From: Nostocoides sp. HKS02
GTDB lineage: Bacteria; Actinomycetota; Actinomycetes; Actinomycetales; Dermatophilaceae
Assembly: GCF_009707485.1 (NCBI RefSeq)
Contig: NZ_CP046121.1
Location: forward strand, 2,666,001 to 2,730,000
Direction of reading: 5' to 3'
Length of the DNA stretch: 64,000 nucleotides
Shown here: one piece after another, positions 5,745-14,032 of the stretch
Position numbering within the stretch: the stretch's first letter is position 1
Layout: every line of letters begins with the position of its first letter
Position numbers and translations under genes: made by a program
The notes under the pieces: generated by a model
The model's database searches: none
The model's input: the letters and a program-made list of their open reading frames with translations, nothing else
Told to the model about the DNA's origin: nothing

Positions 5745-5799
5745 GCCGCTCATCCTTCCACGAGCCGTGGACTCGCCGCGCCCGCGCCATGGCAACGAG

Positions 5800-5832
5800 G
5801 CAGCGACGAGCCAGCGACGAGGCAGCGACGAG
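5800..5832. repeat. Three tandem 11-bp units (SCAGCGACGAG)
   Basis: GCAGCGACGAG, CCAGCGACGAG and GCAGCGACGAG follow each other in the divergent intergenic region between ppiA (minus) and the helical-repeat gene at 5921 (plus). A fourth partial copy may precede them. The function is unknown; it could be a protein-binding array or replication slippage. Confidence 0.6.
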
Positions 5833-5920
5833 CCCCAGAACACACCCCACGGGCTTGCCCACCAGCGGAAACAAGGCAGGATGGGTCACGAGACAGAGTC
5901 CGCCAAGAGCCACAGGAGGC

Positions 5921-6799
5921 ATGGTGTTCCGCACCAAGAGCACGACTGAGCAGGCCGCCGACGCCCTGAGCACCAGCGCGCGCAGCGCTGCCGATCACGC
6001 CGCATCCCTCAAGGACCGCGTCGGCCCAGCCGCCGAGGTGGCCCGTGATCGCGCCACCACGGCTGCCAGCACCGCGATGGACTGGAGCAAGCCCCACGTG
6101 GAGGCCGCGCGCGAGTGGGCCAAGCCGCACGTCGAACACGGCATCGAGGTCGCTGCGCCCAAGCTGCAGGAGGCCGTCGAAGGGCTGGCCCCCAAGGTCG
6201 ACACGGCGCGCGACACGATCGTCGACACCCTGTTGCCGAAGGTCGCCGAGGCGCTCGCCGCCGTCGCAGCGGCGTCGGCCGCCGCGAAGGCCTCTGCGGC
6301 CGACACGGCCGATCGTGCCCCCGACGCTATCGCTGTGCTCAAGGGAGAGCGGGTCGCCAAGCGCCGCAAGGGCAAGTTCTTCCTGTTCCTCGGCCTGGCT
6401 GCGGCGGCTGCCGCCGCCATTGCGGTGTTCCGCAAGTCCACGCCCCGCGAGGACCCCTGGGCCACCCCGCTCGAGGACCCCTACACCGCGCCGACCACGG
6501 GTCGTGACTCCTCGGTGGCGAGCATCGCCGAGGCGGCCAAGGACAAGGCGAGCACCGCCGCCGGCGCGGTCAAGGACAAGGCCGCCAGCGCGACGACGAC
6601 CGTGAAGGATGCGGCCAAGGACGCCAAGGACGCGACCTCCTCCCAGGGACGGCACGCTGCCGACAAGGCGGCTGACGCCACCAAGGACGCGACCGACACG
6701 GCGGCTGAGGCGACCAAGGACGCGACCGACAAGGCTGCTGACGCCACCAAGGACGCCGCTGACTCGGCAGCCGACCAGACCAAGGACGCGCTGGACTGA
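5921..6799 (+). CDS. Ala/Lys-rich helical repeat protein with one membrane segment
   Basis: A 292-residue protein of unknown function. Residues 1-140 are amphipathic Ala-rich helix, including the near repeat W(S/A)KPHVE. A basic RRKGKFFLF stretch leads into a membrane helix (FFLFLGLAAAAAAAIAVF, about residues 150-168). The C-terminal 110 residues are 11-residue-type repeats of the form A(T/A)KDATDxAA, resembling apolipoprotein, LEA or YtxH-like stress proteins. AGGAGG at 5914-5919 is only one base from the ATG at 5921, so the GTG at 5924 may be the true start. It is divergent from ppiA. A role in envelope protection or membrane curvature is only a guess. Confidence 0.75.
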   Translation: MVFRTKSTTEQAADALSTSARSAADHAASLKDRVGPAAEVARDRATTAASTAMDWSKPHVEAAREWAKPHVEHGIEVAAPKLQEAVEGLAPKVDTARDTIVDTLLPKVAEALAAVAAASAAAKASAADTADRAPDAIAVLKGERVAKRRKGKFFLFLGLAAAAAAAIAVFRKSTPREDPWATPLEDPYTAPTTGRDSSVASIAEAAKDKASTAAGAVKDKAASATTTVKDAAKDAKDATSSQGRHAADKAADATKDATDTAAEATKDATDKAADATKDAADSAADQTKDALD

Positions 6800-6835: not shown

Positions 6836-7363
6836 ATGTGGAACGTGGCCGCCGGACCGTTCCTCGCTGCGGCGGGGCTGCTCGTGGTGGCCGGACTCCC
6901 CAAGGTCGCTGACCCGTTGCCCCTCGTGCGGGCCCTGCGTGCTGCGGGTCTGCCAGCAGGCCGCCCGCTCGTGCGCCTGTTTGCCGTCGCCGAGATCGCC
7001 ATCGGTGTCGGGGCGCTGGTCGCTCCCGGGCGGGCCAGTGCCCTCGCGGTCGCGGCGGCATACCTGCTCTTCACCGGCTTCGTGGCGCACGTGCTGCGGC
7101 GCGGCGGCGTGCTGGGTTCCTGCGGCTGCTTCGGCAAGCCCGACACCCCCGCGACCTACACCCATCTGGTCCTGACCGCGGCAGCCGCGCTGGCCGCCCT
7201 CGCCACGGCAGTCGACCCGCCCGCGGGGCCCTGGGCGGGCGTGGACGGCGCGGCCGTGACCACGGCTGGGCTGGCCGTCCTCATCGCGTTCCTCGCCTGG
7301 CAGGTGATGGCGGTACTGCCCACCACCACACCGGCCGCCGTCCGCACGACCACGAAGGGCTGA
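6836..7363 (+). CDS. MauE/DoxX-like membrane protein
   Basis: A 175-residue protein with four predicted helices and the pattern of the MauE/DoxX family. The loop motif GVLGSCGCFGKPD carries a CxC pair typical of MauE-like proteins. In methylotrophs MauE works with MauD in forming disulfides of the periplasmic methylamine dehydrogenase small subunit. Here it is followed two bases later by a MauD-like thioredoxin-fold gene and further on by a Cys-rich MauA-like protein, which supports a role in extracytoplasmic disulfide formation. Methylamine oxidation itself is unlikely because no large-subunit, MauG or amicyanin gene is present in the window. Confidence 0.8.
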   Translation: MWNVAAGPFLAAAGLLVVAGLPKVADPLPLVRALRAAGLPAGRPLVRLFAVAEIAIGVGALVAPGRASALAVAAAYLLFTGFVAHVLRRGGVLGSCGCFGKPDTPATYTHLVLTAAAALAALATAVDPPAGPWAGVDGAAVTTAGLAVLIAFLAWQVMAVLPTTTPAAVRTTTKG

Positions 7364-7365
7364 CC

Positions 7366-8247
7366 ATGCTGGCTGCCGTCATCGCCGAGGGAGTCGCGAT
7401 CGCGCTCCTCGGCGTCCTCGTCCTCGGGTTGCTGCGCAGCCACGCGCTCATCCTCAAGGCACTGCACGAGCTGGGGGCCGGCCTCGAGCTGGAGAAGGAC
7501 GCCGGCACCGGTGTCACGACAGCCACCACCGGAGGTACGCCAGGGCCGGTGCCCGTCGAGCTGGAGCAGGGCGTCGTCCCGGCGACTCGAGCCGACTCCA
7601 CCCGCGCCCACGACATCGTCGGCACCGATCTCGACCGCCGCGAGCGCACCGTCACCGTCCGCACCCCTGGCACCAGGACCCTGCTGGCCTTCCTCACGAG
7701 CGGGTGCAGCGTCTGCCAGACGTTCTGGGACGAGTTCGACCGCGGCGTCGACGTGCCCGGCGACGGCGTGCTGCGGATCGTCGCCAAGGGACCCGAGGAG
7801 GAGTCGATCCCGAGCCTCCGGTCCCTCGCGGGTCGCCTCGACGTGGTGCAGTCCTCGCGGGCCTGGACCGACTACGACATCCCCGGCTCGCCGTACTTCA
7901 TCTACGTCGAGGACGGCCGGGTCACCGGTGAGGGCTCGGCGACCACCTGGCCCCAGGTGCGCGACCTCATGGCGCAAGGAGTCTCCGACAGCGCCGAGGC
8001 GAGGGCGGCGGCTGGCCGCGGTGGCCCGGGGCTGCTCGTCGGCGAGGCGCTCGGCCGCGGTGAGCAGGACCGCCTGCCCCGCATGGACGCCGAGCTGCTC
8101 GCCGCCGGCGTCGGCCCAGGCGACCCCAGCCTGTACCGCTCGCCGGACCTCGACCTCGACCCCGAGCACGACGACCACGACCAGCACGACCACGACCAGC
8201 ACGACCACGATCACCAGCACGACCACCAGCACCCGCCAGGGCGGTGA
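7366..8247 (+). CDS. Membrane-anchored thioredoxin-fold protein (MauD-like) with His/Asp-rich tail
   Basis: A 293-residue protein with an N-terminal membrane anchor (about residues 5-24) and a thioredoxin-like domain at about residues 85-205. The redox motif is TSGCSVCQTFW (CxxC) and the cis-Pro region is IPGSPYFIYV, both like MauD/TlpA proteins. After a linker the last 25 residues are almost only His, Asp and Gln, in repeats of DHDQH, which could bind Zn, Cu or Ni. The gene begins two bases after the MauE-like gene. Function inferred: oxidase or isomerase for cysteines of the exported Cys-rich protein encoded at 9500-11062. Confidence 0.8.
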   Translation: MLAAVIAEGVAIALLGVLVLGLLRSHALILKALHELGAGLELEKDAGTGVTTATTGGTPGPVPVELEQGVVPATRADSTRAHDIVGTDLDRRERTVTVRTPGTRTLLAFLTSGCSVCQTFWDEFDRGVDVPGDGVLRIVAKGPEEESIPSLRSLAGRLDVVQSSRAWTDYDIPGSPYFIYVEDGRVTGEGSATTWPQVRDLMAQGVSDSAEARAAAGRGGPGLLVGEALGRGEQDRLPRMDAELLAAGVGPGDPSLYRSPDLDLDPEHDDHDQHDHDQHDHDHQHDHQHPPGR

Positions 8248-8248
8248 C

Positions 8249-8329
8249 ATGTCGGTGACCACCCTGGCCCTCGCGCTGGGCCTGCCCATGGCCGTCATCG
8301 CTGCGGTGCGGGCCACCTGGTCTCCTTGA
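8249..8329 (+). CDS. Possible 26-residue membrane peptide
   Basis: A short frame starting ATG at 8249, one base after the MauD-like stop, with a GGGCGG sequence just upstream. It encodes one hydrophobic helix (TLALALGLPMAVIAAVRATW) and ends nine bases before the next gene. It fills the only gap in an otherwise tightly packed operon, which favours translation, but composition alone could produce it. It may only couple translation to the next gene. Confidence 0.35.
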   Translation: MSVTTLALALGLPMAVIAAVRATWSP

Positions 8330-8338
8330 GGCGAGTCG

Positions 8339-8935
8339 ATGCTCTCGAGCATCAGCCCGCTCGGTGAGCGGGCCCGCAACTCCCGGTGGTGGCTCACCAC
8401 CACGGCATACCTGCTCGGCTCGCTAGGCGGGGGACTGACGCTCGGGGCACTCGCCTCGCTGGCCGGCTCCGCCCTGCCGTCCACGGTGCGGACCTCGCGC
8501 TGGGCGCTCGCCGTGGTCGCCGTGCTGCTGCTCGTGGGGCTCGCGTTCGAGCTCCGCGGCTCGCGGTCGCTCCCGTCGTGGCGGCGGCAGGTCGACGAGC
8601 AGTGGCTCACGCGCTACCGCGGCTGGGTCTACGGCCTGGGGTTCGGCACGCAGCTGGGCTTCGGCCTGGTCACCATCATCACGAGCGCGACGACGTATGC
8701 CGTGGCGCTGCTGGCGCTGCTCACCAGTCACCTCGCTGCGGGGTTGGCCATCGGCGGGACGTTCGGGGTCGTGCGGGCCCTGCCGTCACTGCTCATGGCC
8801 GGGGTCCACGACCGGCACCAGCTGCACGGCGCGTTCAGCCGGGTCGAGGGTTGGGCCCGTCCGGTGGCCATCCTCGCTAGGGTGGCCCTCGGAGTGGCTG
8901 CGGTGACGGTGTTCGCCGCAGCAGTTGGGAGCTGA
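8339..8935 (+). CDS. Multi-pass membrane protein of the MauE/MauD-like operon
   Basis: A 198-residue protein with about five to six hydrophobic helices, for example AYLLGSLGGGLTLGALASLA and GFGLVTIITSATTYAVALLA. It occupies the place of MauF or a CcdA/DsbD-like transporter in mau-type clusters and has the same general Gly/Leu-rich pattern. It contains no cysteine, so it cannot pass electrons by thiol exchange as CcdA does. It could instead be a structural partner or a transporter. It is spaced nine bases after the small ORF and four bases before the next gene. Confidence 0.65.
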   Translation: MLSSISPLGERARNSRWWLTTTAYLLGSLGGGLTLGALASLAGSALPSTVRTSRWALAVVAVLLLVGLAFELRGSRSLPSWRRQVDEQWLTRYRGWVYGLGFGTQLGFGLVTIITSATTYAVALLALLTSHLAAGLAIGGTFGVVRALPSLLMAGVHDRHQLHGAFSRVEGWARPVAILARVALGVAAVTVFAAAVGS

Positions 8936-8939
8936 CGCG

Positions 8940-9503
8940 ATGGCTGACCTCTACGGGCTCGACGCCCACCCGCCCCGAGGCTGGGTGGTGGCCGTGTCGC
9001 GTCGCCCCGGAACCCTCCCGCCGCCCGCCAGTGTGCGGCTCGCAACCGCGGTCGCGTCCGGGGTCGCTGACGGGGTCGCTGACGAGGTCGCTGACGGGGT
9101 CGAGGCCGATGTGACCCGCCCGGTCCTGCACGCCTGCACCCGCCCGCTGCCCGCCGATCGCGGCGACTTCGGCAGCGGTGCCGTCGACCTGCTCGGCCCC
9201 AACGACATCTTCGTCGCGCTCGTCGACTACGGCACCGAGGTCGCGGACCAGGGGTTGTTCGAGAAGCAGGGGATGCCGCGGCTCGCTCCATCGCAGTTCG
9301 CGCCGAACCGGTTGCAACGACCGCTGCCGGGCATGAGCGCCTGCCAGCACTTCTTCAGCGTCGGCGGCCGGGCGTTCTGCCTCTTCACGGTCCTGGGGAG
9401 TCATGCCCGACGGATGGCGTCGGTGCCTCGCGCCGCGGCCCTGGTCCAGACCGTCCAGATCACCGACCGCCACACGCTGGCCCGGCGGGGAGGCCGCCCA
9501 TGA
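8940..9503 (+). CDS. Hypothetical protein preceding the Cys-rich Tat substrate
   Basis: A 187-residue protein without a recognised domain, signal peptide or membrane helix. Residues about 45-58 are encoded by a 12-bp tandem repeat (GVADGVADEVADG). The C-terminal half holds the strand-rich segment SACQHFFSVGGRAFCLFTVLG with two of its three cysteines. A GGGAG ribosome site lies before the ATG at 8940. The stop overlaps the next start as ATGA, so it is probably made in fixed ratio with the exported Cys-rich protein. A dedicated chaperone or cytoplasmic partner is possible but not shown. Confidence 0.65.
   Translation: MADLYGLDAHPPRGWVVAVSRRPGTLPPPASVRLATAVASGVADGVADEVADGVEADVTRPVLHACTRPLPADRGDFGSGAVDLLGPNDIFVALVDYGTEVADQGLFEKQGMPRLAPSQFAPNRLQRPLPGMSACQHFFSVGGRAFCLFTVLGSHARRMASVPRAAALVQTVQITDRHTLARRGGRP
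9060..9101. repeat. 12-bp in-frame tandem repeat (GGGGTCGCTGAC)
   Basis: Three and a half copies of a 12-bp unit, one with a single change (GAGG for GGGG), lie inside the gene at 8940-9503 and encode VADG-type tetrapeptides. In-frame unit length means copy changes would not break the gene. Confidence 0.75.
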
Positions 9504-11062
9504 GCACCCTCGAGGACCTCACCACCGGGCCCGGCGGCGTGGCCGGCTTCGTCGGATCGCTCTCGCGGCGCTTTCGGCCCGTCACGCGCCGCAGCCTCCT
9601 GCTCGGGGCGACCGTCGCAGCCACCGCGCTCGCCACCAAACCCAAGGAGTACGTCCTTCGGCCGGTCCCGGCATACGCCACGATCTGCGGGCCCGGCAAC
9701 ACCGCGTCGAGCGGCTGGACCGTGTTCTGCTGCACCATCAACAACGGCGTCAACGCCTGCCCGCCCGGCAGCTTCGCAGCGGGCTGGTGGAAGGCCGCGG
9801 ACTCGTCGTGGTGTGGCGCGGGCTACCGCTACATCGTCGACTGCAACGCCTCCTGCTCGAAGTGCACCAGCGGGTGCAGCGACGGCATCTGCGACTCCCG
9901 GTGCTGGAGCTGCTCGTGCGGCTCCGGGTCGACCGCCACCTGCGACCAGCGCCGGGTGTGCTGCAACGCGTTCCGCTACGGCCAGTGCAACACGCAGGTG
10001 AAGTGCAGCGGTGGCGTGCACTGCCGGGTCGTGAGCTGTGTGCCGCCGTACCGGTGGACCAACTGCACGACCACGAGCCTGGTCGACAACCGCACCAGCG
10101 AGCACAGCGCACCGTGCCTGCCGGTCTGGAACGCCATCGAGCGCAAGTACGACGCGATGGGGGCCCAGGGGTCCTACCTGCGGGCGTCGATCACCCCGTC
10201 GCGGTCGGTCGGCGACGGCCGGGGTGTCTACGTCCGGTACCAGGGCGGCGGCATCTACTGGACGTCCACCACCGGGGCGATCGCCCTGACCAGCCACACG
10301 CTGCGGGGCTGGGACGCGAGCGGGGGTGTCTACGGCCAGCTGCGCTACCCCATCGCCGACCCCGCCCCAGGCCGGCGTGCCGGCGGCTGGATCCAGGCGT
10401 TCGAGCACGGGGCCCTGGCCGGCGCCTCCAACGCGGCGATCGCCGCGGTCTACGAGCCCAGCTGGACCGTTTGGAAGGCGAACAACCGCGAGGCAGGACC
10501 GCTGGGATACCCAGTGGCAGCGCGGGTCACCAACCCCGACGCCCGGGGCTGGCACCAGCAGTTCCAGGGCGGCTTCATCACCGACAGCCCCGCCACTCCC
10601 ACCGTCGCCGTGTACGAGACGTCCGCGACCATCTGGGTTCGCGAGGGTCGTGAGGCCGGCCCGCTCGGGTACCCCACCGCGGGACGCACGGTGACGGGCA
10701 CAGGCATGTGGATCCAGCTGTTCGAGGGGGGCGCCATCGCCGACACCGGCGTCACGACAACGACCGCCGTCTACGGCGTGATGTATGCCGGGTGGCAGCG
10801 GTTCGGTCGTGAGGCCGGGCTGCTCAAGTACCCCACCGCCTCGGTAGCCCGGGACACGCGGGGCGCGGGCCAGACCTTCCAGGGTGGCCAGCTGTGGGCG
10901 CTCGGGGCAGGACCTGCACGGCTGGTCTACGGGTCGGTGCTCACTGGCTGGACCAACGCGGGCGGGGCGGCTGGCTCGTACGGCTACCCGGTCACCGACA
11001 CCACGGCGACCGGCGATGGCCGGCTCACGTGCCAGTTCGAGGGCGGCACCATCACGGCCTGA
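9500..11062 (+). CDS. Tat-exported Cys-rich MauA-like protein with C-terminal LGFP repeats
   Basis: A 520-residue secreted protein. The twin-arginine signal is TRRSLLLGATVAATALAT at about residues 29-46. Residues about 57-210 contain 22 cysteines, and the order CxxxxxxxxxCPPG followed by Trp-rich and CxxxC clusters resembles the methylamine dehydrogenase light chain (MauA), whose CPPG segment precedes the Trp that becomes the TTQ cofactor. Here GWW and SSWC lie in the matching place. The rest is five LGFP-type repeats with cores such as REAGPLGYPVA and REAGPLGYPTA, which in actinobacteria bind or organise the cell wall. It overlaps the upstream gene by four bases and the 3' end of convergent selA by eleven. 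Relation to MauA is moderate; enzymatic function and TTQ are unproven. Confidence 0.8.
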   Translation: MSTLEDLTTGPGGVAGFVGSLSRRFRPVTRRSLLLGATVAATALATKPKEYVLRPVPAYATICGPGNTASSGWTVFCCTINNGVNACPPGSFAAGWWKAADSSWCGAGYRYIVDCNASCSKCTSGCSDGICDSRCWSCSCGSGSTATCDQRRVCCNAFRYGQCNTQVKCSGGVHCRVVSCVPPYRWTNCTTTSLVDNRTSEHSAPCLPVWNAIERKYDAMGAQGSYLRASITPSRSVGDGRGVYVRYQGGGIYWTSTTGAIALTSHTLRGWDASGGVYGQLRYPIADPAPGRRAGGWIQAFEHGALAGASNAAIAAVYEPSWTVWKANNREAGPLGYPVAARVTNPDARGWHQQFQGGFITDSPATPTVAVYETSATIWVREGREAGPLGYPTAGRTVTGTGMWIQLFEGGAIADTGVTTTTAVYGVMYAGWQRFGREAGLLKYPTASVARDTRGAGQTFQGGQLWALGAGPARLVYGSVLTGWTNAGGAAGSYGYPVTDTTATGDGRLTCQFEGGTITA

Positions 11063-12356
11063 CGGCCGCAATCGCCTGCAGGACGAGGGTGTCGGAATCC
11101 TCGGGGATGCAGCGCAGGTCCACCAGCGCGCGCCCGCGCTCGACGCGCGCCAGGACCGGGCGAGCCTGCGCCCGCAGCGCCGCGGCATACGCCTCGGGCA
11201 AGGCCACGGCCCATCCGGGGAGCATGACCCCTGGAGCGCCGCCGCCCCCGACCACCCCGTCCGAGGGGACCGTCTCGGCACCTACTCGCACTGGCAGCCC
11301 GGCGACCAAGGCGTCGCACCGCTCACGCAGCCGAGCCGGGTCGGCCTCCAGCGCGTCCCACACGGGTGGCCGCGGCCCCCGAACCGTGGCCTCGAGCGCG
11401 GCCAGGGTGGTCTTGTCGGCGCGGACGGCGCGCGCGAGCGGATGACGGCGGAGCCTCTCCACCGTCTCGGCGCGCCCGAGCACGAGCCCCGCCTGCGGGC
11501 CGCCCAGCACCTTGTCACCGCTGCAGGTGACGACAGCGGCGCCGTCGCGCAGTGACCGCGCGGCGTCGGGCTCGTCCGGCAGCAGCCGGTGCGGCCGGAG
11601 CAGGCCACTGCCGATGTCGTGGACGACCGGGGGGCCGAGCGCCACGAGAGCCGCCACGTCGACGGACGCCGTGAAGCCGTCGACCCGGAAGTTGCTCGGG
11701 TGCACCTTGAGGATGCACCCGGTGTCGGGGCCGACCGCCTGGGCGTAGTCGGCCAGGGTGGTCCGGTTGGTCGTGCCGACCTCGCGCAGCCGGGCCCCCG
11801 TGCTCGCGATGAGGTCGGGCAGCCGAAAGCCGTCCCCGATCTCGACCATCTCGCCGCGGCTGACCACGACCTCGCGGCCGGCGGCGAGCGCCGTCGTGGC
11901 GAGCACGAGGGCCGCCGCCCCGTTGTTGACGACCAGGGCTGCCCCGGCCTCAGGAAGCAGCTCGAGCAGGGCAGCGATCGCGCCGGCCCCCCGCCGCGAG
12001 CGCCGTCCGGTGGCGAGGTCGAGCTCCACGTCGACCGTGCCGGCCGCCGCGCGCATCGCCTCGATGGCGGCGTGCGACAGCGGTGCGCGGCCGAGGTTGG
12101 TGTGGATCACGACGCCGGTGGCGTTGAGGACCGGGGTCAGCGACATGACGCGCTCCGGCAAGGCGGCCAGGGTTGCGGCGACGACGTCGTCGGGGCCGAT
12201 CTCGCCGTCCCGGACCCGGCCCTGGACGGTCCGGACGACTCCGCGGACCACGTCGCGGCCCAGCCGCGAGACCGCTTGCGCCACAGCGGGATCCGCGAGT
12301 ACGGCGTCGGTCCGCGGCACGAGGCGCCGGGCATCCGCGTGGTGCGGCTGCGGCAT
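11052..12356 (-). CDS. selA: L-seryl-tRNA(Sec) selenium transferase
   Basis: A 434-residue PLP enzyme that converts Ser-tRNA(Sec) to Sec-tRNA(Sec) using selenophosphate. Family marks are LTPVLNATGVVIHTNLGRAP near residue 70, the VNNGAAAL segment, HPSNFRV, and the PLP lysine in TCSGDKVLGGPQAG. The ATG at 12356 has GGAGG five bases upstream and lies inside a GTATGCC heptamer. The frame can be read further upstream, but that would run into the tRNA-Sec gene. It is followed by nothing co-directional in the window; selC lies 17 bp upstream on the same strand and selD is divergent. Confidence 0.96.
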   Translation of the reverse strand: MPQPHHADARRLVPRTDAVLADPAVAQAVSRLGRDVVRGVVRTVQGRVRDGEIGPDDVVAATLAALPERVMSLTPVLNATGVVIHTNLGRAPLSHAAIEAMRAAAGTVDVELDLATGRRSRRGAGAIAALLELLPEAGAALVVNNGAAALVLATTALAAGREVVVSRGEMVEIGDGFRLPDLIASTGARLREVGTTNRTTLADYAQAVGPDTGCILKVHPSNFRVDGFTASVDVAALVALGPPVVHDIGSGLLRPHRLLPDEPDAARSLRDGAAVVTCSGDKVLGGPQAGLVLGRAETVERLRRHPLARAVRADKTTLAALEATVRGPRPPVWDALEADPARLRERCDALVAGLPVRVGAETVPSDGVVGGGGAPGVMLPGWAVALPEAYAAALRAQARPVLARVERGRALVDLRCIPEDSDTLVLQAIAAVRP

Positions 12357-12373
12357 ACGGGCCTCCCTGTCGT

Positions 12374-12469
12374 TGGCGGAGGCGGACGGGAATCGAACCC
12401 GCCCAGCCGAGCTGCTCGGCTGCACCGGTTTTGAAGACCGGGAGGGCCACCAGGCACCTGTACGCCTCC
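12374..12469 (-). tRNA. selC: tRNA-Sec (anticodon TCA)
   Basis: A selenocysteine tRNA of 96 nt including an encoded CCA. Reading the minus strand, the acceptor GGAGGCG pairs with CGCCTCC, the anticodon arm CCGGTCTTCAAAACCGG carries TCA at 12432-12434, a long variable arm (CAGCCGAGC-AGCTCGGCTG) follows, and the T arm is GCGGGTTCGATTCCCGT. The long variable arm and extended acceptor/T stack are diagnostic for tRNA-Sec. It lies between selA and selD, completing a compact Sec biosynthesis locus. Confidence 0.93.
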
Positions 12470-12493
12470 GCTGGCGAGGCTAGCGTAGGCACC

Positions 12494-13484
12494 ATGACGA
12501 CGTTGGAGACGCCCGTACGGCTCACGCAGTATGCCGCGGGCGGCGGCTGCGCCTGCAAGCTCCCGCCGGGCGAGCTGGAGCAGGTCGTGCGCGACCTGGT
12601 CGGGCAGCCCGCCGGTGACGTGGTGGTCGGGCTCGACACCGGCGACGACGGCGCGGTGGTCCGGGTGGCCGACGGGTTGGCGGTGATCAGTACCGCCGAC
12701 TTCTTCACGCCGGTCGTCGACGACGCCTACGACTTCGGACGCATCGTGGCGGCCAACGCGCTCTCGGACGTCTACGCGATGGGCGGCCGACCGGTGCTCG
12801 CCATCAACCTCGTGGGCTGGCCGCGGGGGGTCCTGCCGCTGGAGCTGCTGCGCGAGGTGCTGCGGGGCGGTGTCGACGTCGCGCGCCAGGCGGGCTGCCC
12901 TGTCGCGGGCGGCCACAGCATCGACGATCCCGAGCCCAAGTACGGCATGGCGGTCACCGGGGTAGCCGACCCCGATCGGCTGCTGCGCAACGACGCAGCG
13001 CGGCCCGGGCTCCCGCTCAGCCTGACCAAGCCCATCGGGGTCGGGATGCTCAACAACCGCCACAAGGCGACCGGCGAGGTCTTCCCGCAGGCCATCGCCT
13101 CGATGACGACCCTCAACGCGCAGGCCAGCGCCGCGGCCCTGGCAGCCGGGGTCGTGGCGGCGACCGACGTCACCGGGTTCGGGCTGCTCGGTCACCTGTT
13201 CTCGATGCTGCGGGGGTCCGGCGTGGGCGCCGTGCTGGACGCCGCGGCCGTGCCGGTGCTCGAGGGGGCCCGCGACGCGTTGCGCGACGGCTTCGTCAGT
13301 GGTGGTACGCGGCGCAACCTCGAGTGGGTGCGCCCGCACCTCGACACCGCGCTCAGCGAGGACGAGCTGCTGGTGCTCGCGGACGCGCAGACCAGCGGCG
13401 GGCTCCTCGTCGTCGGTGAGGTCCCCGGCGCGCCGGTGATCGGGCACACCGTCGCCGGCCCCCCCGCGTATCCGCATCGCCTGA
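12494..13484 (+). CDS. selD: Selenide, water dikinase (stop restored across a C-run indel)
   Basis: Makes selenophosphate from selenide and ATP for SelA. Motifs include the catalytic GGCACK near residue 18, DTGDDGAV, ADFFTPVVDDAYDFGRI, NALSDVYAMGG, AGGHSI and TDVTGFGLLGHL. As written, the frame does not stop but runs into the downstream SRPBCC gene (to 14032). At 13459-13465 there is a run of seven C; with six C the protein ends naturally as AGPPRIRIA at a TGA at 13482-13484, matching normal SelD length (about 330 residues). The read-through fusion is therefore probably a sequencing artefact. The gene is divergent from selC and selA. Confidence 0.93.
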
Positions 13485-13597
13485 GCACCGCTGCGGATCC
13501 GCGAATCCGCGTTGAGGCAGTAGCGTGGCGCCACTCGCCCACTTGGCACCCGCCCCGGCCACGCGCCCCGGCCATGCCCTCGCAGCTCGGAGAACCC

Positions 13598-14032
13598 ATG
13601 CCGCACTTCGCCCACACGCTCTCGGTGAGTGCAGCGCCGTCCGCCATCTTCGCGATCATCGACGACTTCTCGAAGACCCCGCAGTGGTTGTCGCGGTGCA
13701 CCGGCATCGACAAGCTCGACCCGGGTGCCAACGACGTCGGCACCCGGCTCAACTACCACTACGACGACGGCCGCCGCTCGGGCACGATGGACGGCCAGAT
13801 CGTCGCGCGCGAGCCGGACCGGCACTTCGCGATGAAGTTCACCGACCGGATGATGGATGTCACCGTCGACTTCGTCGCGGCCTCGGACGGGGTCGGCACC
13901 ACCTTGACCCACACGATCGATATCGCCACCAAGGGTTTCGGCGTGCTGCTCTCTCCCCTCATCAAGCGACAGCTGCCCAAGCAGACCATGGATGCGATGA
14001 CCGCCCTCAAGGCCATGGCCGAACAGCCCTGA
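13598..14032 (+). CDS. SRPBCC family protein
   Basis: A 144-residue START-like (SRPBCC) fold protein: N-terminal FAHTLSVSAAPSAIFAIIDD, the central YHYDDGRRSGTMDGQI strands and a long C-terminal helix ending MDAMTALKAMAEQ. Such proteins have a hydrophobic ligand cavity and diverse roles (polyketide cyclase-like, ligand transport). The ATG at 13598 has GGAG eight bases upstream. In the raw frame it appears fused to selD, but that depends on a doubtful C run (see selD). Ligand unknown. Confidence 0.85.
   Translation: MPHFAHTLSVSAAPSAIFAIIDDFSKTPQWLSRCTGIDKLDPGANDVGTRLNYHYDDGRRSGTMDGQIVAREPDRHFAMKFTDRMMDVTVDFVAASDGVGTTLTHTIDIATKGFGVLLSPLIKRQLPKQTMDAMTALKAMAEQP

Follow-up and report, generated by a model that had tools for sequence, protein, structure and literature searches.

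A densely packed operon in Nostocoides sp. HKS02 raises the question of whether a TGA codon in its middle ends one gene or is read as selenocysteine (Sec). The operon occupies positions 6836-11062 of the window (the whole stretch of 64,000 nucleotides that was analysed) and consists of six + strand stretches, here termed A to F, at 6836-7363, 7366-8247, 8249-8329, 8339-8935, 8940-9503 and 9500-11062. The sequence-only reading had described these as six packed genes, among them a 26-residue peptide (C) followed by a Cys-free multi-pass protein (D). The six stretches are present and conserved as a set, and D does lack Cys, but C and D are one frame joined through the TGA rather than two genes. 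The joined C+D is very probably a selenoprotein in which the TGA is read as Sec, because the TGA is conserved, Cys homologues exist, the TGA form co-occurs with selA, covarying hairpins follow the codon and Sec machinery adjoins the operon.

A probable single gene across the TGA

C (26 aa) and D (198 aa) lie in one frame, the sole interruption of which is the TGA at 8327-8329 (+ strand). Read through, the gene spans 8249-8935 on the + strand and would encode a protein of 228 aa whose residue 27 is Sec, in the context TWSP-U-GESMLSSISP; in other loci the junction is RATWSP-TGA-GESMLSSISPLGER and variants of it. Outside the window 52 loci match D; their junction codon is TGA in 50 and TGC (Cys) in two (L101 and L067), with the flanking WSP and G.S.L conserved, and TGA is the stop type in all 50 stop-bearing loci. 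Residues W24, S25, P26, U27, G28, S30, L32 and P37 are invariant over 35 aligned rows, save that one row has Cys at 27, and the residues flanking the codon rank among the most conserved in the joined protein. Homologues that continue uninterrupted with Cys comprise P0132, P0182, L101, L067, L163, L164, L169, L170, L173 and L174.

A putative RNA element after the codon

Two hairpins lie just downstream of the TGA, the first at 8338-8353 and the second at 8355-8373 with an apical GGU at 8363-8365. Counted from the codon, columns 9-14 pair with 19-24 (hairpin 1) and 26-33 with 37-44 (hairpin 2), giving 14 pairs. Pairing holds in 96.4% of cells over 36 first-clade sequences, and in 96.7% when nine sequences of a second clade, with the same offsets and different stem letters, are added. 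For these 36+9 sequences the covariation score is 0.258 versus 0.066 (standard deviation 0.011) after shuffling (0/500 shuffles), with a maximum of 0.091 when the pairing is slid, and double-change cells number 57 versus 16.7 shuffled. Codon choice within the element is AGC in 47/47 sequences (background 0.23), CCG in 47/47 (0.55), CGG in 35/36 (0.37) and GGT in 26/47 (0.11). The two-hairpin pattern was not seen in the seven Cys genes that were folded. Bacterial selenocysteine insertion sequence (SECIS) elements have loops and distances of this kind, and the covariation and synonymous constraint at 8338-8373 (+ strand) point to a putative SECIS-like element.

Several observations weigh against such an element. 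Pairs changed on both sides number 6 versus 5.0 shuffled, with 149/500 shuffles as high, and pair types 11 versus 8.4 (16/500 shuffles), two of the five covariation measures being unremarkable. The covariation set was itself selected, comprising 36 of 47 distinct first-clade and 9 of 12 other TGA sequences; the 11 excluded first-clade sequences mostly have hairpin 2 in a different register (UCCCC-GGUC-GGGGA), and with these included seven of the eight hairpin 2 pairs are kept in no more than 30-39 of 47. Compared with synonymous shuffles, folding energy is lower by a small margin only (mean z -0.71, n = 52 genes including the Cys gene L101; 21/52 under -1, several positive), and the minimum-energy fold gives both hairpins in 3/5 second-clade TGA genes.

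Selenium machinery and co-occurrence

The operon is adjoined at 11052-14032 by selA (11052-12356, - strand; TIGR00474, 412 bits, cut-off 268), the selenocysteine tRNA, tRNA-Sec (12378-12469, - strand; Rfam RF01852, 82.1 bits; placed at 12374-12469 by ARAGORN) and selD (12494-14032, + strand; TIGR00476, 382.6 bits over residues 9-308), and selB is found over its cut-off elsewhere in the genome.

Across the phylum, 396 Actinomycetota genomes were searched for F, selA (matches at E 0.001) and the joined protein, which matched in 31, 236 (226 over cut-off) and 67 genomes, respectively. Twenty-eight of the F carriers have selA and three (G188, G426 and G434) do not; in the latter, the joined protein runs on without a stop and has Cys at the site. 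Where the junction site was covered, the TGA form occurs in 54 genomes, 52 of them with a selA match, and the no-stop form alone in seven, none with selA (Fisher P 8e-8, uncorrected for kinship, related genomes not being independent); genomes matching outside the site only (G096, G163, G243, G320, G340 and G415) were left out of this count. The two TGA carriers without selA are metagenome-assembled genomes (MAGs), 68 and 73% complete, and the 52 include G254, whose selA match is weak (2.4e-12). The codon was read in six of the seven no-stop genomes, all except G070, and is Cys in each, and G154, which has one Cys copy, one TGA copy and selA, was tallied under TGA. Of 44 F-carrying genomes, 39 score at least 56 bits for tRNA-Sec; the selA-less three score no more than 48.7, as look-alike tRNAs do, and the MAGs G243 and G320 are also low.

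Other features of the selenium genes deserve mention in their own right. In the genome of the window, an FdhA-like gene carrying a single in-frame TGA lies near selB (G000:C1:1507356-1508102 and 1500524-1502266; 178 bits, under the family cut-off), likely a second selenoprotein. The selD frame continues without a stop from ∼13598 into a second stretch, possibly a fusion, which by eye we take to be SRPBCC/cyclase-like. G005 and G007 each have two tRNA-Sec matches of more than 75 bits, one of them near the operon.

The joined protein and its partners resemble MauF, MauE and MauD

MauF is needed for methylamine dehydrogenase, and in the Paracoccus mau cluster, which was taken from an annotated plasmid, it contains STWSPCGYSS. 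Using hhalign, the joined family aligns with MauF (98.8%, E 5.2e-17) over 165 columns of the membrane domain at 33% identity, and when A, B, E and the joined protein were compared with nine mau proteins, only the pairs with MauE (A), MauD (B) and MauF (C+D) stood out. The assignment of a MauE-like first gene is borne out by PF07291 (57.6 bits, cut-off 27) and by the alignment of A (6836-7363, + strand) with Paracoccus MauE (95.2%, E 2.8e-8); this membrane protein keeps C96, G97 and C98 in at least 95% of 52 sequences. The second gene, B (7366-8247, + strand), is likewise the MauD-like thioredoxin it had been taken for, aligning with Paracoccus MauD (97.0%, E 1.1e-10, 170 columns) and keeping the CxxC residues C114 and C117 in at least 95% of 56 sequences. 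Homology of the three membrane proteins to MauE, MauD and MauF is thus supported by computation. B ends (∼8170-8244) in a His/Asp-rich tail, DHDQHDHD..., that most same-genus relatives share and that is missing from L023 and from the more distant L029-L031; it may bind metal.

Conservation of the set was assessed in relatives chosen for carrying F. All six stretches were detected by tblastn in 14/14 such relatives (10 of the same genus, 1 of the same family and 3 of the same order), and in 47/57 further loci, also chosen by F, with the 26-aa C scored at a lax threshold; the gene set described in the sequence-only reading is thus conserved, its parsing being mistaken at C and D. Among the ten incomplete loci, L053, L058, L059 and L063 lack A, L062 and L067 lack several genes, and L068, L069, L111 and L115 lack C and D, contig ends cutting some of them. 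Gene order varies, F being second in L107, L114, L117 and L119. The MauF-like gene is linked to the mauE- and mauD-like genes in 14/14 relatives and most further loci, and computation supports conservation of the set together with a Cys-rich exported protein. Pfam matches over cut-off are confined to MauE in the first protein and LGFP repeats in the last, and no NCBIfam model exceeds its own cut-off for any operon protein. Upstream, a repetitive Ala/Lys-rich protein (window 5789-6799) adjoins the operon in 10/10 same-genus relatives.

The exported Cys-rich protein F

F (9500-11062, + strand) carries a twin-arginine (Tat) signal recognized by eye, 22 Cys within residues 45-217 (23 in total) and six LGFP stretches by Pfam, in agreement with the earlier description of a 22-Cys domain fused to LGFP repeats, which should hold the protein at the cell surface. 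The further proposal that F is MauA-like fails at the sequence level: the Cys-rich domain gave no match to the MauA family PF02975, and neither a PDB profile search nor hhalign gave a significant match. The fold shows a weak match to light chains with tryptophan tryptophylquinone (TTQ). W96-W97 is invariant in 45/45 aligned members with no third Trp invariant, and the weak alignment places this pair near the first TTQ Trp, given what we take to be the TTQ positions.

In line with the noted absence of a dehydrogenase large subunit and of MauG, neither PF06433 (large subunit) nor PF03150 (MauG) was found in the genome of the window. PF06433 was also absent from the operon's proteins and from all 44 F-carrying genomes, although this genome-wide absence is weak because the control matched nowhere. 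PF03150 occurs in 1/44 (G426; 23.4 bits alone, 31.6 with neighbours, cut-off 25.6).

F matches in L096, L098, L099 and L100 contain one TGA. Sec inside F was considered and rejected for L096 and L098, where the TGA closes a short F that lacks an anchor. In G114, F (L119 7842-8306) is the Cys domain alone, ending in EEGCL without a surface anchor, and the G320 copy (L098) has a similar end.

A second clade with apparently different clients

Genomes without F have more distant relatives of the joined protein, in a Sec form (FGPUGLSM) or a Cys form. Sixteen such second-clade loci were inspected. A MauD-like match lies close by in 10 of them and a MauE-like one in 8 (E 0.01), and 9 encode a protein with a Tat signal and ten invariant Cys, eight beside a Sec form and one (L169) beside a Cys form. 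This second Tat-signal Cys-rich family (HICGHTYTTGSCPHP...GGGWSRCC...DCC) adjoins the Sec-containing MauF relative in L165-L168, L172 and L175-L177 and has a single invariant Trp. Because these loci pair MauD/MauE-like genes with another Tat-signal Cys-rich protein, the MauE/MauD/MauF module seems to serve different exported clients. An identity of the second-clade client with MauA was rejected, the likeness being confined to the signal peptide (mature parts, 5/60 shuffles as high), as was a motif common to both client families (W..C...R..DC), which is weak (P 0.005, 2/60 shuffles). A very distant relative with STGUGTS (L181 9089-9688) in G154, where the main protein also occurs in a Cys form, adjoins a short RR-containing protein with 16 Cys.

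Proposed function

We consider it likely that the operon is a MauE-MauD-MauF assembly module with a selenoprotein MauF, the protein E and F as its Tat-exported, 22-Cys, LGFP-bearing client. The earlier notion of a dedicated disulfide-folding and export system is partly supported, in that a Mau-like module accompanies a Cys-rich client, and fails in its parsing of the genes. MauF would be a membrane carrier of thiol electrons akin to DsbD/CcdA, and Sec would sit where MauF has the Cys of TWSPCG, at the end of the first membrane helix. Its partners in selenenylsulfide or disulfide exchange may be the CGC pair of MauE, the CxxC of MauD, or both. The Sec-containing MauF would supply electrons to MauD and MauE or take them away as the client folds, and MauD would form or re-shuffle the client's many disulfides. 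Apparently, then, the Sec-containing MauF aids the building of a Cys-rich surface protein in many actinobacteria. By analogy, the Cys of TWSPCG would be the probable redox centre of MauF in methylamine dehydrogenase maturation. According to one account of these genes, it is speculated that MauE assists disulfide formation in methylamine dehydrogenase, and MauD is described as having an unclear function (PMC7794033).

In Pfam searches at E 1, DsbD_2 matches 16 of 35 members of the joined family (best 4.7e-9) and DsbD_TM eight (best 3.8e-6), and AlphaFold models the joined protein confidently, with a predicted local distance difference test score of 94.7 and a predicted template modelling score of 0.90. 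Other results speak against the proposed role. The window's own member has no Pfam DsbD match; the likeness of the model to the CcdA structure 5vkv is weak (rank 7, probability 0.60, E 0.27, template modelling score 0.36), and CcdA is not among the matches listed in a second structure comparison, those listed being general transporter folds. Sec27 is the only redox residue of the joined protein, neither C nor D having Cys; CcdA and DsbD carry a pair of redox Cys in their membrane domain, so that the proposed path of the electrons is a guess. In G426 and G188 the Cys form sits apart from the A-B-E-F genes. Lastly, E (8940-9503, + strand, 187 aa), conserved in 14/14 F-chosen relatives, has no match over cut-off in Pfam or NCBIfam, none in the PDB at E 5, and none by hhalign among the nine mau proteins.

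Alternative explanations

Were the TGA a genuine stop, C would be a 26-aa membrane micropeptide translationally coupled to a separate 198-aa D, for which an ATG stands ready four codons past the TGA in 49/51 genes (CTG in L119 and GTG in L060). Public annotation follows the same line: 118 of the best 120 among 1244 matches, the window's D included, are 198-208 aa long, and the entries P0178 and P0149 start MLSSISPLGER. We nevertheless hold this explanation to be extremely improbable and reject a stand-alone C. Cys homologues run through the junction, as does MauF via TWSPCG; the stop is always TGA in 50 loci, tracks selA and is followed by covarying hairpins; and L119 has no usable start at the supposed D start codon, which reads ATC in L178 and GTC in L180, two distant loci.

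Given a selenoprotein, its task could differ from disulfide exchange. A transporter-like protein moving sulfur, selenium or metal species used by its gene neighbours would suit the public names of D relatives (among the matches listed, for example, sulfite exporter TauE/SafE), the general transporter folds among the structures listed and the His-rich tail that B has here and in most of its close relatives. Homology to MauF, neighbours with CxxC and CGC and the exported Cys-rich client make it improbable, and redox roles are thought to fit most known selenoproteins in the account that accompanies a recent inventory (PMC13188914). It is also unlikely, if somewhat less far-fetched, that F is a subunit of a redox enzyme and builds a cofactor from residues of its own, such as the invariant Trp pair, and that the Mau-like module serves this cofactor as much as the disulfides. 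The invariance of W96-W97, the weak resemblance in fold to TTQ light chains and the counterparts of all of MauE, MauD and MauF favour such a cofactor; against it, the MauG family occurs in just one of 44 genomes (G426) and MauB in 0/44 (the control being silent), PF02975 gave no match, F lacks a third invariant Trp and second-clade clients keep just one. Broader still, and in our view doubtful, is a phylum-wide line of Sec-containing MauF, MauE and MauD that matures at least two Tat-exported Cys-rich families of TTQ-enzyme stock, some of them given, without MauG, a cofactor formed from the protein itself at its invariant Trp. The assembly module with a disulfide-rich client is the reading we retain.

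Comparison with known systems

The joined protein would found a new selenoprotein family, with the TGA form in 54/396 Actinomycetota genomes. No NCBIfam 20.0 model fits it across 35 members, which also gave no match at E 0.1 to NF045694 and other selenoprotein models. Nor does any of the 119 families of a 2026 inventory fit, as compared by the names and motifs it gives; the families of Haft and Tolstoy 2025 are included in its table (PMC13188914). We found no report in the open-access literature tying selenoproteins or selenocysteine to MauE, MauF or methylamine dehydrogenase. The selenoprotein content of actinobacteria would be underestimated, because public gene calls start past the TGA and carry other names (among the matches listed, sulfite exporter, permease or hypothetical protein).

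The carriers CcdA and DsbD (PF02683, PF13386) are similar in that their profiles match part of the joined family and that its redox residue follows 'SP' near the end of helix 1, a likeness we presume to hold for the CcdA motif. The joined family differs in having a single redox residue, Sec, and shows no clear likeness in structure. TsoB, to judge by its table name, is also a Sec protein with a DsbD-like part fused to a rhodanese, yet it has two Sec in the motif UxxxxU and belongs to NF045694 (PMC13188914). Candidate ribosomally synthesized and post-translationally modified peptide (RiPP) clusters of Streptomyces likewise combine mauE (and in one family mauD) with a precursor of at least eight Cys, in genomes that have no further mau orthologues according to the authors; in contrast to the present operon, they are described in that account without mention of MauF or selenocysteine (PMC7794033).

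The closest known system is the mau cluster of Paracoccus denitrificans and Methylobacterium (L183 and L182). It differs in that A, B, E and the joined protein have no match to MauB, amicyanin, MauJ or MauG, in that the operon has Sec in its MauF and the extra protein E, and in that its client is larger, carries LGFP repeats and 22 Cys, and by sequence is no MauA. Our comparison singles out one Cys of MauF as its probable redox centre, a question that becomes directly testable, and suggests the MauE/MauD/MauF trio to be a general maturation module independent of methylamine. Both systems combine MauF, MauE and MauD homologues with a Cys-rich protein bearing a Tat signal, and the TWSPCG motif of MauF corresponds to the TWSPUG of the operon.

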